Of a stretch of 51,334 bases of DNA, positions 7,756 through 11,800 are shown in pieces; positions within the stretch are counted from its first letter, which is position 1; each line of letters begins with the position of its first letter. Both the position numbers and the translations under genes were made by a program. The DNA is taken from contig RZYT01000002.1 of assembly GCA_009930195.1 (NCBI GenBank), positions 1-51,334 on the forward strand, given 5' to 3'. The stretch comes from Spirochaetia bacterium (GTDB lineage Bacteria > Spirochaetota > Spirochaetia > Sphaerochaetales > Sphaerochaetaceae). The notes below the pieces were generated by a model, which did not search any database, was not told the DNA's origin, and worked only from the letters and a program-made list of their open reading frames with translations.

Positions 7756-8381
7756 AACAGGGAGCTGATCATAGGAAAAAGTGCATGGGCGAGGGCCTGA
7801 TGGCCCTCCCTATCCATGTGCAGCTGATCGATTTCTGATGGTTGTGCAACCTGGGAAGCATCAAGAAAGAGCACATCCTGCTCTTTTGCCATCTGCCTGA
7901 TCGCGGGGGCAAGCTTTCTGCTCAACGTGGATGAGGATGCATCATAGCTGACAAACGGAGCCTTCTCTATCTCCAGGCCGATGTGGATCGGAGAGACAAC
8001 AAGCACCTTGGGGATGGGGTACCCTTCCCCATAGGGGTAGGTCCGAATCAGGGCAATCAATTGCTCCAAAGCCTTGGCGATGATTCGCTCACTGGCTTTG
8101 AAGAAAACCTTGCAGTCGTTGGTTCCCAGACTGACGATGACCAGATCGATGGGCCGGTGGCTCTGCAGGGCTACCGGGAGGAACTGCTTTCCGCACCGGT
8201 TGGGTTCAAGGGGGTCGTCAAAGACGGTGGTACGCCCACCCATTCCTTCCTCGATGATGCGGTAGGAAGGGCCGAGCAGACCAGAGAGAATGCCGGTCCA
8301 ACGATCCTCATAGGACCATCTCCCACCGCTTGGGTTGGTACCGAACGTATTGGAATCACCGAAACAGAGTATCGTATGCAT
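7752..8381 (-). CDS. SGNH/GDSL-family hydrolase
   Basis: A 209-residue SGNH hydrolase. Block I (ILCFGDSNTFG) carries the nucleophile Ser near residue 9; block III reads VSLGTND; the C-terminal block contains D and H in IDQLHMDREGHQAL. Members are esterases or lipases acting on acyl or acetyl esters, including acetylated sugars. No signal peptide, so cytoplasmic. The ATG at 8381 is chosen because the GDSL block follows at once; the frame is open for 50 codons further upstream but those would run through a terminator hairpin. There is no Shine-Dalgarno site. It converges on the EEP gene, sharing CTAG as stop for both. Confidence 0.9.
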   Translation of the reverse strand: MHTILCFGDSNTFGTNPSGGRWSYEDRWTGILSGLLGPSYRIIEEGMGGRTTVFDDPLEPNRCGKQFLPVALQSHRPIDLVIVSLGTNDCKVFFKASERIIAKALEQLIALIRTYPYGEGYPIPKVLVVSPIHIGLEIEKAPFVSYDASSSTLSRKLAPAIRQMAKEQDVLFLDASQVAQPSEIDQLHMDREGHQALAHALFPMISSLF

Positions 8382-8396
8382 AGGGTGAGTGTAGCA
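8379..8396 (-). promoter_or_regulatory. extended -10 element giving a leaderless SGNH mRNA
   Basis: On the minus strand TGCTACACT (8396-8388) is an extended -10 whose hexamer ends six bases before ATG 8381. The 17-bp spaced -35 position is poor (TTTTAT). No ribosome site precedes the ATG. Confidence 0.4.
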
Positions 8397-8409
8397 AGAG
8401 ATTCCCCTA

Positions 8410-8443
8410 AATAAAAGGCCAGTGATCGGGAGAATCACTGGCC
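8410..8443 (-). terminator. rho-independent terminator with no protein gene upstream
   Basis: GGCCAGTGAT (8417-8426) pairs perfectly over 10 bp with ATCACTGGCC (8434-8443), loop of 7. Read on the minus strand the stem is followed by TTTTATTT. It therefore terminates RNA arriving from the 8.44-8.63 kb segment and lies just ahead of the SGNH gene. Confidence 0.85.
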
Positions 8444-8626
8444 CAAGGGATTTGTGTTGCAAATAAACACTGATGTCCATCGAGAAGTAGGAAGCTCTGC
8501 AACAGCGAGGGAGAAAAACACCTACCGGCAAGCAGCACCGATTGAAGTAGAATCATCGGCAGGAACGGGGGACCAATTTCCCAATTGGCTATCCCACTGT
8601 TCTCCTCCGTTTCATGTCCCTTCCTA
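8417..8626 (-). ncRNA. candidate small RNA or attenuating leader
   Basis: A minus-strand unit of about 210 nt is bounded by a strong promoter (TTGACA 8661-8656, 18-bp spacer, TATCCT 8637-8632) and the terminator at 8417-8443. It contains a hairpin CCAATT/AATTGG (8573-8578 with 8583-8588) extended by GGGA/TCCC (8569-8572 with 8592-8595), and further pairing potential such as CCGAT/ATCGG near 8535-8560. The only reading frame with a ribosome site is an 8-codon ORF (8615-8589) with three consecutive Arg codons CGG AGG AGA. It could be a free small RNA, or a leader controlling the SGNH gene 36 bases beyond the terminator. No known RNA family was recognised. Confidence 0.55.
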
Positions 8627-8631
8627 ACACT

Positions 8632-8661
8632 AGGATATGTGTAAAAGTGGTATATTGTCAA
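8632..8661 (-). promoter_or_regulatory. sigma70-like promoter of the candidate small RNA
   Basis: Minus strand: perfect -35 TTGACA (8661-8656), 18-bp spacer, -10 TATCCT (8637-8632), AT-rich DNA upstream (8662-8720). The predicted start is near 8625, where the RNA would begin AGGAAGG. Confidence 0.65.
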
Positions 8662-8860
8662 TAGAGCTACTATTATAGCATTATCATATATAAAATTATC
8701 GAATGTTTTTAGCATTATATCGTTAATCCTGCTTTTCTAATTTTCTTGTGTCAGAACATTTGCTTAATTTAGTTGAATTTTGGCAGTTTCCTTCCGATCA
8801 GGTCCAATTATATCTTCTGTCCTGTCACAACCAAGTATTCACTCTTTTTTTATCTACATA

Positions 8861-8909
8861 TTGACGAATCAATGGGGACAGACTATAGTTGTCCTTGGCA
8901 ATTATTGCC
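8861..8909 (+). promoter_or_regulatory. marR-type promoter with two operator palindromes
   Basis: TTGACG (8861-8866), 17-bp spacer and TATAGT (8884-8889) form a good promoter, with a start near 8896. GGACA (8876-8880) and TGTCC (8890-8894) flank the -10, and GGCAAT-T-ATTGCC (8897-8909) lies on the start site. Both are symmetric sites where the MarR protein could bind to repress itself and the sulfur-transfer gene. The rest of 8662-8860 is AT-rich with no gene seen. Confidence 0.6.
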
Positions 8910-8933: not shown

Positions 8934-9287
8934 ATGCTTGACTTATGTGCCATTCGGAGATTGCAGACATCACTACGCACCTTCGAAGAAGAACTCAAAC
9001 GCCAAACCGGCCTTTCATTCAATGACGCACTCCTATTGTGTGCAGTCAACAAAGGCATCCAAGAACCCGGAGCCCTGGCAAAGGAGCTGGAGCTCTCTCC
9101 TTCCCGACTGACCAGAATCCTGGACAGCTTGGAAGGCCGTTCGCTCATCAAACGCAGCCTCAGCAGCGCAGATCGCAGGAGCCTTACGGTAAGCCTGACC
9201 GAGCAAGGCTCGGCCATGGTACAGACGTACAGTTGCTCGGAGATCTGTCTCCCTGAGGATCTTGCATTCACCCAAGCCACTACTTAG
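8934..9287 (+). CDS. MarR-family transcriptional regulator, short
   Basis: A 117-residue MarR-type repressor. The winged helix is visible: SFNDALLLCAVNKG, then ALAKELELSPSRLTRILDSLEGRSLIKRSLSSADRRSLTVSLTEQG, with the family's wing signature DRR. ATG 8934 is preceded by GGAG at 6 bases. At 117 residues it is shorter than the usual 140-150; the final dimerisation helix after the wing is reduced to about 20 unusual residues. The gene ends inside the AGGAGG site of the next gene, 8 bases from its start, so the two form an operon. A regulator beside a CoA-disulfide reductase/persulfide enzyme probably senses oxidants, sulfide or persulfide (inference). Confidence 0.82.
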   Translation: MLDLCAIRRLQTSLRTFEEELKRQTGLSFNDALLLCAVNKGIQEPGALAKELELSPSRLTRILDSLEGRSLIKRSLSSADRRSLTVSLTEQGSAMVQTYSCSEICLPEDLAFTQATT

Positions 9288-9295
9288 GAGGACCT

Positions 9296-11800
9296 ATGGC
9301 AAAATATCTCATTGTCGGAGGAGTCGCAGGAGGCGCAGGAACCGCCGCCAGGCTCAGGAGAAGGGATGAAAACGCCCAAATCATCATGTTCGAGCGCGGA
9401 GAGTACATCAGTTACGCCAACTGCGGGCTGCCCTACTATGCCGGAAATGTCATCACCGAGCGCTCCCGCCTTTTTGTCATGACACCCGAGCGGTTCGCAG
9501 AGAGCCTGAACGTTGAGGCGCGTGTTCTCAGTGAGGTGGTCTCCATCAACCGCGAAGCAAAGACCATCCATGTCAGGGACCTGAAGAACAATACCGAGTA
9601 TGACGAACGGTATGACACCCTCATCCTCTCACCCGGTGCCAGCCCTGTCCGTCCACCCATCCCCGGCATCGACCATCCGGCCATCCTCTCACTGCGCTCA
9701 GTATCCGACATTGACCGGATCAAGGAGAAAGTCGACAAAACCACCACCAAACGCGCAGTCGTGGTTGGCGGCGGATTCATCGGCTTGGAGATGGCAGAGA
9801 ATCTGAAGGAACGCGGTCTGGAAGTCTCAGTGGTGGAAGCTCTGGAACAGGTGATGAACATCATCGACTACGATCTGGCTGCCGAAGTGCAGCAACACCT
9901 GAGAGCCAAGGGAGTGAACCTGTATCTCAAGGATGGGGTTGCCGCATTTGAGGGACATGAGAGCATTGTCAGCGTCCGCCTTGCGTCAGGAACACTCATC
10001 GATGCGGACCTGGTCATTCTTTCCATTGGGGTACGACCCGACACTGCTTTTCTCAAGGAAGCAGGAATCGAACTGGCAAAGAACGGGGCGATCAAGGTCG
10101 ACCCCTACTTCACCACCAATGACAAGGACATCCGTGCAGTCGGTGATGCCATTGAGTTCACCAGTCCCCTGACCAAGAGTCCCGTCACCGTGCCGCTGGC
10201 AGGACCTGCCAACAAACAGGCACGCCTCTGTGCAGATGCCATCATCGACGGGAACAAGAAGCCTTATGAAGGCACCATCGCCACCAGCATTGCCAAGATC
10301 TTTGACATGACGGTGGCCTCAACCGGGCTGACTGAAAAAGGCCTGAAAGCAGCAAAGCTTCCCTACCGCTGTGCAGTCACCCATGCAGGCAATCATGCCG
10401 GCTACTATCCCAACTCACTGCAATTGACCCTCAAGGTCCTCTACCATCCCAAGACAGGCAAGATCTGGGGTGCGCAGGGTGTCGGATATGATGGTGTGGA
10501 CAAGCGAATCGATGTCATCTCCGCCTTCATCGGCAAGGAAGGGACTGTCCAGGACCTCGCAGAGTTTGAGCAGGCCTATGCACCCCCGTTCTCCAGTGCC
10601 AAGGATCCGGTGAACATGGTCGGCTTCGTTGCCGTCAACGTTCTGGAAGGATTCAGTGACACCATCAGCTGGGAAGAAGCAGAAACAGCACGCAAGAGTG
10701 GTGCTTTCATGCTGGATGTCCGTACTGAAGAGGAGTTCGAGCTGGGTGCCATTGAAGGGGCTGTAAACATTCCCAATACCGTGCTCAGGGATCGTCTCTC
10801 CCAGGTTCCCAAGGACCGTGAGATCATCGTCAATTGTGCCATGGGGTTGCGCGGATATCTGGCCGAGCGCATCCTGAGGCAGAACGGCTACACCAAGGTG
10901 AGGAACCTCACCGGTGGATTCAAGACTTACGACAGTGCAGTGCGCGAACGGGAGCTCTTGGAGAATCGTCAGAAGGTATCGGTCAAGGATGAGGCTGGAC
11001 TCATCAACCATCTCAATGAGGATGGATCCTTCCGCAAGCGCTCCGAGAACAAGATTTTCAAGGTTGATGCCTGCGGCTTGCAGTGCCCGGGACCGATCAT
11101 CCGCCTGAAGAAGGAAATCGACAACCTCGAGCAAGGTGACCGTATCGTCATCAAGGCTTCCGACCCCGGTTTCGGCGTCGATGTGCAATCCTGGTGCAAG
11201 CTTACCGGCAATGAGTTGGTGAGTGTCACCACTACCAATGGCATCATCGAGGCAATCATCGGAAAAGGTAATCCTGCTGTATGCGCCATGCCCGCCTCTG
11301 CTGGGGAAAAGCCGGCAATCTGCGACCCGGACAACGGGGCAACCATGATTGTCTTCTCCAACGACCTTGACAAGGCATTGGCCTCATTCGTACTCGCCAA
11401 CGGGGCTGCTGCCACGGGTAAGCCTGTGACGATGTTCTTCACCTTCTGGGGCCTTTCGGTTCTTCGCAAGAAGGATGCACCCAAGGTGAAGAAAGACTTC
11501 ATGGGGAAGATGTTCGGTGCCATGCTGCCCAAGGGTATGGAACAGCTTGCGCTCTCATCCATGAACATGGGAGGAATGGGCGCAAAGATGATGAAAGGCC
11601 GCATGAGGAAAAAGCATGTCGACCAGGTCGAGCAGATGTTCGAGGAAGCCAAGAAAGCAGGGGTTCGCATGGTCGCATGCCAGATGTCCATGGACATCAT
11701 GGGCATCACCAAAGAAGAGCTGCATGACGGCGTTGAAATCGGAGGGGTTGCAACCTACATGGGAGCAGCTTCCGAAAGCAAGATCAATCTTTTCATCTAG
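9296..11800 (+). CDS. CoA-disulfide reductase fused to rhodanese, TusA and DsrE-like domains
   Basis: An 834-residue four-module protein. Residues 1-440 are a FAD/NAD(P)H pyridine-nucleotide disulfide oxidoreductase of the CoA-disulfide reductase/Nsr type, with the Rossmann motif VGGVAGGAGTAARLRR and the single active Cys43 in YANCGLPYY. About 455-550 is a rhodanese domain with Cys in VNCAMGLRG. About 585-660 is a TusA/SirA domain with the CGLQCPGP signature. About 680-834 is a DsrE2-like domain with a conserved Cys near 795 in ACQMSMDIMG. Each module handles persulfide or thiol sulfur, so one chain may reduce CoA disulfide or persulfide and pass sulfur along. The protein is cytoplasmic. AGGAGG lies 6 bases before ATG 9296. 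It is probably controlled by the adjacent MarR protein. Confidence 0.93.
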   Translation: MAKYLIVGGVAGGAGTAARLRRRDENAQIIMFERGEYISYANCGLPYYAGNVITERSRLFVMTPERFAESLNVEARVLSEVVSINREAKTIHVRDLKNNTEYDERYDTLILSPGASPVRPPIPGIDHPAILSLRSVSDIDRIKEKVDKTTTKRAVVVGGGFIGLEMAENLKERGLEVSVVEALEQVMNIIDYDLAAEVQQHLRAKGVNLYLKDGVAAFEGHESIVSVRLASGTLIDADLVILSIGVRPDTAFLKEAGIELAKNGAIKVDPYFTTNDKDIRAVGDAIEFTSPLTKSPVTVPLAGPANKQARLCADAIIDGNKKPYEGTIATSIAKIFDMTVASTGLTEKGLKAAKLPYRCAVTHAGNHAGYYPNSLQLTLKVLYHPKTGKIWGAQGVGYDGVDKRIDVISAFIGKEGTVQDLAEFEQAYAPPFSSAKDPVNMVGFVAVNVLEGFSDTISWEEAETARKSGAFMLDVRTEEEFELGAIEGAVNIPNTVLRDRLSQVPKDREIIVNCAMGLRGYLAERILRQNGYTKVRNLTGGFKTYDSAVRERELLENRQKVSVKDEAGLINHLNEDGSFRKRSENKIFKVDACGLQCPGPIIRLKKEIDNLEQGDRIVIKASDPGFGVDVQSWCKLTGNELVSVTTTNGIIEAIIGKGNPAVCAMPASAGEKPAICDPDNGATMIVFSNDLDKALASFVLANGAAATGKPVTMFFTFWGLSVLRKKDAPKVKKDFMGKMFGAMLPKGMEQLALSSMNMGGMGAKMMKGRMRKKHVDQVEQMFEEAKKAGVRMVACQMSMDIMGITKEELHDGVEIGGVATYMGAASESKINLFI

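Follow-up and report, generated by a model that had tools for sequence, protein, structure and literature searches.

The window, by which we mean the whole 51,334-nt stretch of DNA analysed here, carries on its minus strand a segment bounded by a promoter and a terminator and followed by a gene of the SGNH family. A sequence-only reading had left two options for this locus, a free small RNA or a leader that controls the SGNH gene, which raises the question of what the segment encodes. Our comparison with related genomes indicates that positions 8411-8625 (minus strand) probably specify a free-standing structured small RNA with a predicted length of ~210 bases. Searches of the literature yielded no publication dealing with small RNAs in Sphaerochaeta.

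Promoter, terminator and predicted transcript ends

The following features delimit the predicted transcript.

8411-8625, minus: small RNA gene, predicted transcript from ~8625/8624 to ~8411 (covariance model, covariation and fold)
Predicted transcript ends, minus: 5' start AGGAAGGG, 3' end in the U-tract, 205-215 nt
8632-8637, minus: -10 box TATCCT (TATNNT across the family)
8656-8661, minus: -35 box TTGACA (TTGACA or TTGACT in all members at E ≤ 1e-15)
8687-8699, minus: conserved A/T element ATAAWWTTATATA upstream of the -35 box, a candidate UP-element-like or regulator site
8749-8756, minus: TTCTGACA block ~125 nt upstream of the RNA start, conserved in the alignment
8416-8444, minus: intrinsic terminator with an invariant UCCC in the loop

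The two promoter boxes are separated by an 18-nt spacer, which is conserved in the family, and AGGAAGGGAC lies 3' of this TTGACA-18-TATCCT promoter on the minus strand. The promoter had been described as perfect; the TTGACA hexamer is indeed present at 8661-8656, but the -10 box TATCCT has only four of six matches, so that the promoter as a whole is good but falls short of perfect. The perfect 10-bp terminator described at the same time was found at 8444-8416, where GGCCAGTGAT-TCTCCCG-ATCACTGGCC forms 10 perfect pairs, or 12 with the flanking pairs, ahead of a T-rich tail. Both the promoter and the intrinsic terminator are conserved along with the RNA in the family. The ATAAWWTTATATA element together with TTGAC was matched in 16 genomes, in each of them once and at the small RNA, apart from a second match in G001; it was therefore rejected as a shared regulon element. 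The idea of a dispersed terminator repeat was also rejected, as the terminator hairpin is present in only one or two copies per genome.

Conservation and covarying structure in the genus

The survey was made at the genus level and comprised 26 congeners from Sphaerochaeta and relatives, with a cut-off of E ≤ 1e-15. DNA search located the segment in about half of them. Covariance search in related genomes, the check suggested by the sequence-only reading, revealed one full copy each in 16 of the 26 congeners, with a conserved structure and compensatory changes; 13 of the 16 matched sequences trained the model, and their E-values are not independent evidence. The same holds for the match of the covariance model (R1) at 8411-8625 with an E-value of 2.2e-62, as the window sequence was in the training set. 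Two further genomes, G022 and G010, have a diverged and weaker copy that was recognised by its syntenic position. The covariance model gave no convincing copy in G016, G015 and G020, which are complete or near-complete, and, among 139 genomes searched from the remainder of the order, no convincing match.

The minus strand folds at -74 kcal/mol, with a z-score of -2.5 against dinucleotide shuffles. The alignment and consensus structure, built from 13 distinct sequences, show P1 as the closing stem, P2 as a long arm that branches into the hairpins P2a and P2b, P3 as a second arm, and the terminator, with the following positions in the window.

8617-8622, minus: P1 5' strand AAGGGA (consensus structure)
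8445-8450, minus: P1 3' strand UCCCUU (consensus structure)
8598-8610, minus: P2 5' strand, purine-rich, holding the Arg codons (double changes in 7 of 13 pairs)
8508-8520, minus: P2 3' strand, pyrimidine-rich (consensus structure, covariation)
8568-8597, minus: hairpin P2a (double changes in 2 of 5 pairs)
8521-8562, minus: hairpin P2b, large apical loop with CUAC at 8550-8547 (consensus structure, covariation)
8453-8507, minus: hairpin P3, apical loop with CUAC at 8490-8487 (consensus structure, covariation)

Standard pairs occupy 91% of the 640 pair cells of the 13-sequence alignment, 40 of which are double-change cells. Compared to this, slid controls with the 3' partner moved by 1-3 columns have 43-53% of cells paired and 8-10 double-change cells, a comparison in which the structure is somewhat favoured because it was derived from the same 13 sequences. 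In 500 shuffles, the pairing percentage, the number of double-change cells and the covariation score all stayed below the values observed. Double changes affect one or more pairs in each of P2, P2a, P2b, P3 and the terminator; P1 hardly varies and thus says little on covariation. P2b and P3, with 76% and 85% of their cells paired, are the least certain helices. Altogether, the clear stems seen earlier are borne out by the z-score and by their recurrence with compensatory changes in 16 congeneric genomes. The promoter and the terminator recur along with them, and this conservation is the decisive argument against chance; the small RNA is, at the sequence level, a real and new genus-level sRNA family.

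Two conserved and mutually complementary motifs are the GGGA of the P2a region and the UCCC in the loop of the terminator. GGGA is partly paired in one clade, however, so that a kissing loop between them would be a mere possibility.

At first sight, the length of ~200 nt and the closing stem resemble 6S RNA (RF00013), as if a housekeeping RNA (6S, SRP, RNase P or tmRNA) had diverged here. However, the small RNA has a three-branched fold instead of a rod with a central bubble, matches no Rfam 15 family above the gathering cut-off and is not matched by the 6S model even at E ≤ 10. A separate 6S candidate is located elsewhere in the genome of the window (G000:C16:5650-5838), as in most congeners searched, and the small RNA was not found in several near-complete congeners. 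We consider a housekeeping origin extremely unlikely. The Rfam matches at E ≤ 10 were dismissed as chance only; they include tsr31 and CyaR, whose weak score came from the terminator-loop part. The 6S candidates of the congeners themselves score below the Rfam gathering cut-off (up to 45.8 versus 46.4 bits), and standard annotation would miss them.

Neighbouring genes and the small ORF

The surroundings of the small RNA contain the following features.

8413-8453: 41-bp segment, single in the window, duplicated around a TRAP cassette in G060
8589-8615, minus: 8-codon ORF MKRRRTVG*, with the start position kept in the family, the frame and length not
8897-8909, plus: palindrome GGCAATTATTGCC of the marR leader, conserved in position in most congeners
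8934-9287, plus: marR-like regulator, divergent, conserved synteny partner (Cys5, Cys36 and Cys100 conserved)
9296-11800, plus: CoA-disulfide reductase/rhodanese/TusA/DsrE fusion of the marR operon

The constant neighbour in the relatives is the divergent operon composed of the marR-like gene and the CoA-disulfide reductase/rhodanese/TusA/DsrE fusion. Fifteen of the 16 copies adjoin marR; the remaining one, in G005, lies at another locus, to which the promoter and the upstream A/T element have moved together with the RNA. G016, G015, G020 and G021 have kept marR, with other genes at the position of the small RNA, and a contig of G003 ends at this position.

On the downstream side, the relatives possess TRAP-transporter genes, SGNH or convergent genes, the convergent gene being an ORF with weak similarity to MalT-TPR in G005 and an alpha/beta hydrolase in G006. 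The segment had been placed immediately ahead of the SGNH gene, which in the window starts (8381) only 35 nt past the terminator, but this adjacency is not conserved. In the closed genome of the same species (G060), the small RNA and SGNH are separated by a 5.3-kb cassette (L127:2681-8023) that encodes GntR, dctP, dctQ, dctM and a fucose-isomerase-like gene. The cassette is flanked by two direct repeats that are copies of the last 41 bp of the small RNA; it is absent from the window strain, and no integrase was seen. The junction of RNA and SGNH in the window is a strain-level event and therefore cannot underlie a conserved leader function.

A cis-acting leader (attenuator or riboswitch), either of SGNH or of the TRAP-transporter operon, would fit the location of the RNA and its terminator directly 5' of SGNH in the window and of the TRAP genes in most relatives examined. 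Nevertheless, we regard it as very unlikely, given that the downstream genes differ, that they are convergent in G005 and G006 and that the TRAP operon intervenes in the same-species genome. Moreover, the GntR/TRAP cassette apparently brings a promoter and operator-like repeats of its own, and we noticed no antiterminator pairing alongside the conserved terminator. The same observations, which do not support control of the SGNH gene, favour the other option of the sequence-only reading, and we predict with high confidence that the small RNA is a free transcript independent of the downstream genes. At the SGNH start itself (8381-8397), GCTACACTCACCCTATG places a -10-like box right before the ATG, likewise in L001, which fits a leaderless mRNA driven by a promoter of the gene's own. 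The terminator of the small RNA may be a site of recombination or insertion.

The 8-codon ORF with the consecutive Arg codons CGG AGG AGA is present as described, at 8615-8589 (ATG AAA CGG AGG AGA ACA GTG GGA TAG). Its start codon (ATG; GTG in G006) occupies the same position in all 16 members, just 3' of a purine-rich Shine-Dalgarno-like sequence. Across the members the peptides vary from 7 to 34 residues and differ in sequence (MKRRRTVG, MMKRKTEVP, VKKEVDGG and MYLMKGI), and 1-nt indels shift the frame in G007, G011 and G013. As the Arg-rich ORF is conserved in neither frame nor length, the proposed attenuation leader finds no support; among the relatives compared there is neither a conserved run of a sensed codon nor the same regulated gene downstream. 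Similar to amino-acid attenuation leaders, the locus has a short ORF with consecutive like codons ahead of a terminator, but it differs from them in the lack of frame conservation, of a conserved downstream biosynthetic gene and of an identified antiterminator.

The constant start behind the Shine-Dalgarno-like sequence speaks for a dual-function RNA or small-protein mRNA, in which the GGAAGGGA-AUG start would be used and a short basic peptide (MKRRR../MIRRR..), or translation as such, would matter. This is quite unlikely in view of the variable lengths, shifted frames and differing peptides. In addition, the Shine-Dalgarno sequence lies inside P1. The Arg codons belong to a purine tract that forms the 5' strand of P2, and pairing in this helix, with its compensatory changes, accounts for the tract.

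CUAC loops and the possible mode of action

The RNA is marked out above all by the tetramer CUAC. Across the 13 sequences, the initial 180 nt contain 48 copies of it, compared to 7.3 expected from dinucleotide shuffles; as the sequences are related, these are not 48 events, but the excess still holds within each RNA. Forty-three of the 48 reside in unpaired consensus columns, that is, in loops, and the mean unpaired probability is 0.68 for CUAC versus 0.39 for all positions. Each RNA has two to six copies in 12 of the 13 aligned members, with two in the window member, and G007 has a single one. CTAC is also somewhat over-represented in the whole window (266 versus 163 in the same kind of shuffle), so that part of the CUAC excess may reflect a genome-wide bias.

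CsrA was found in none of the 26 congeners and Hfq in only one (G003), whereas control genomes gave matches for both. This rules out a classical CsrA sponge and, for nearly all members, any mode that depends on Hfq. The sole Hfq gene (G003:C20:2187-2375) may stem from transfer or contamination.

The small RNA is probably a regulator, and we propose, as the best and a moderately probable explanation, that it is a free regulatory RNA of ~210 nt acting in trans by base pairing, independently of Hfq. Transcription would start from the strong, conserved sigma-70-type promoter and end at its own intrinsic terminator. The folded RNA would then present two large apical loops with unpaired CUAC repeats, in addition to the UCCC terminator loop, and these loops would pair with mRNAs, likely at ribosome-binding regions (UCCUACUU against AAGUAGGA), without CsrA and, in all but one assembly, without Hfq. 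RsaE/RoxS and CyaR are trans-acting intergenic sRNAs with C-rich or anti-Shine-Dalgarno loops. The small RNA resembles them in its own promoter and terminator, intergenic location, exposed pyrimidine-rich loops and UCCC-type terminator loop; it differs in the lack of sequence homology, the near absence of Hfq, the repeated CUAC and the larger branched fold.

Target prediction was a weak test on one genome, covering 2.0 of 3.2 Mb (62%) of G060 with simple gene calls. UCCUACUU is complementary to AAGUAGGA-type Shine-Dalgarno start regions there, in a number expected from composition. Against base pairing, the two loops formed duplexes with 1855 start regions that were energetically no better than those of shuffled loops, and translation-initiation regions contained no more complements of CUAC than a Markov model predicts. 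The three congeners in which the covariance model gave no convincing copy also count against the proposed explanation.

Instead, the unpaired CUAC repeats might titrate an RNA-binding protein in the manner of CsrB or CrcZ, the protein being neither CsrA nor Hfq. Such sequestration agrees with the repetition of CUAC in loops far above chance, with the variable loop sequence around it and with the single-genome target search, which gave no base-pairing signal. CsrB/RsmZ and CrcZ are protein-sequestering RNAs with GGA or AAYAAYAA motifs, and known sponge RNAs carry many more motif copies. The small RNA shares with them a short motif repeated in the loops of a structured RNA, but the motif is CUAC, its copies are few, down to two in the window member and one in G007, CsrA is absent from the genus and no candidate protein emerged. 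We hold protein sequestration to be possible but doubtful; it is the chief rival of trans base pairing, which we favour as the likeliest mode.

The family represents a conserved, covariation-supported sRNA whose promoter is defined, from bacteria in which Hfq and CsrA seem to be mostly missing. Such an RNA provides a concrete way into the post-transcriptional control of these spirochaetes, with the unpaired CUAC as a specific, testable motif.

A more specific and slightly more doubtful version of sequestration is a genus-specific sponge, in which the CUAC loops would capture an RNA-binding regulator and the RNA would be tied to the marR/CoA-disulfide-reductase (thiol or persulfide) locus. No copy of GGCAATTATTGCC, or other MarR operator, was found near the small RNA promoter. 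In the marR leader, GGCAATTATTGCC is a probable autoregulatory operator of marR, and the marR-type regulator encoded ahead of the CoA-disulfide reductase fusion is possibly a thiol or persulfide sensor.
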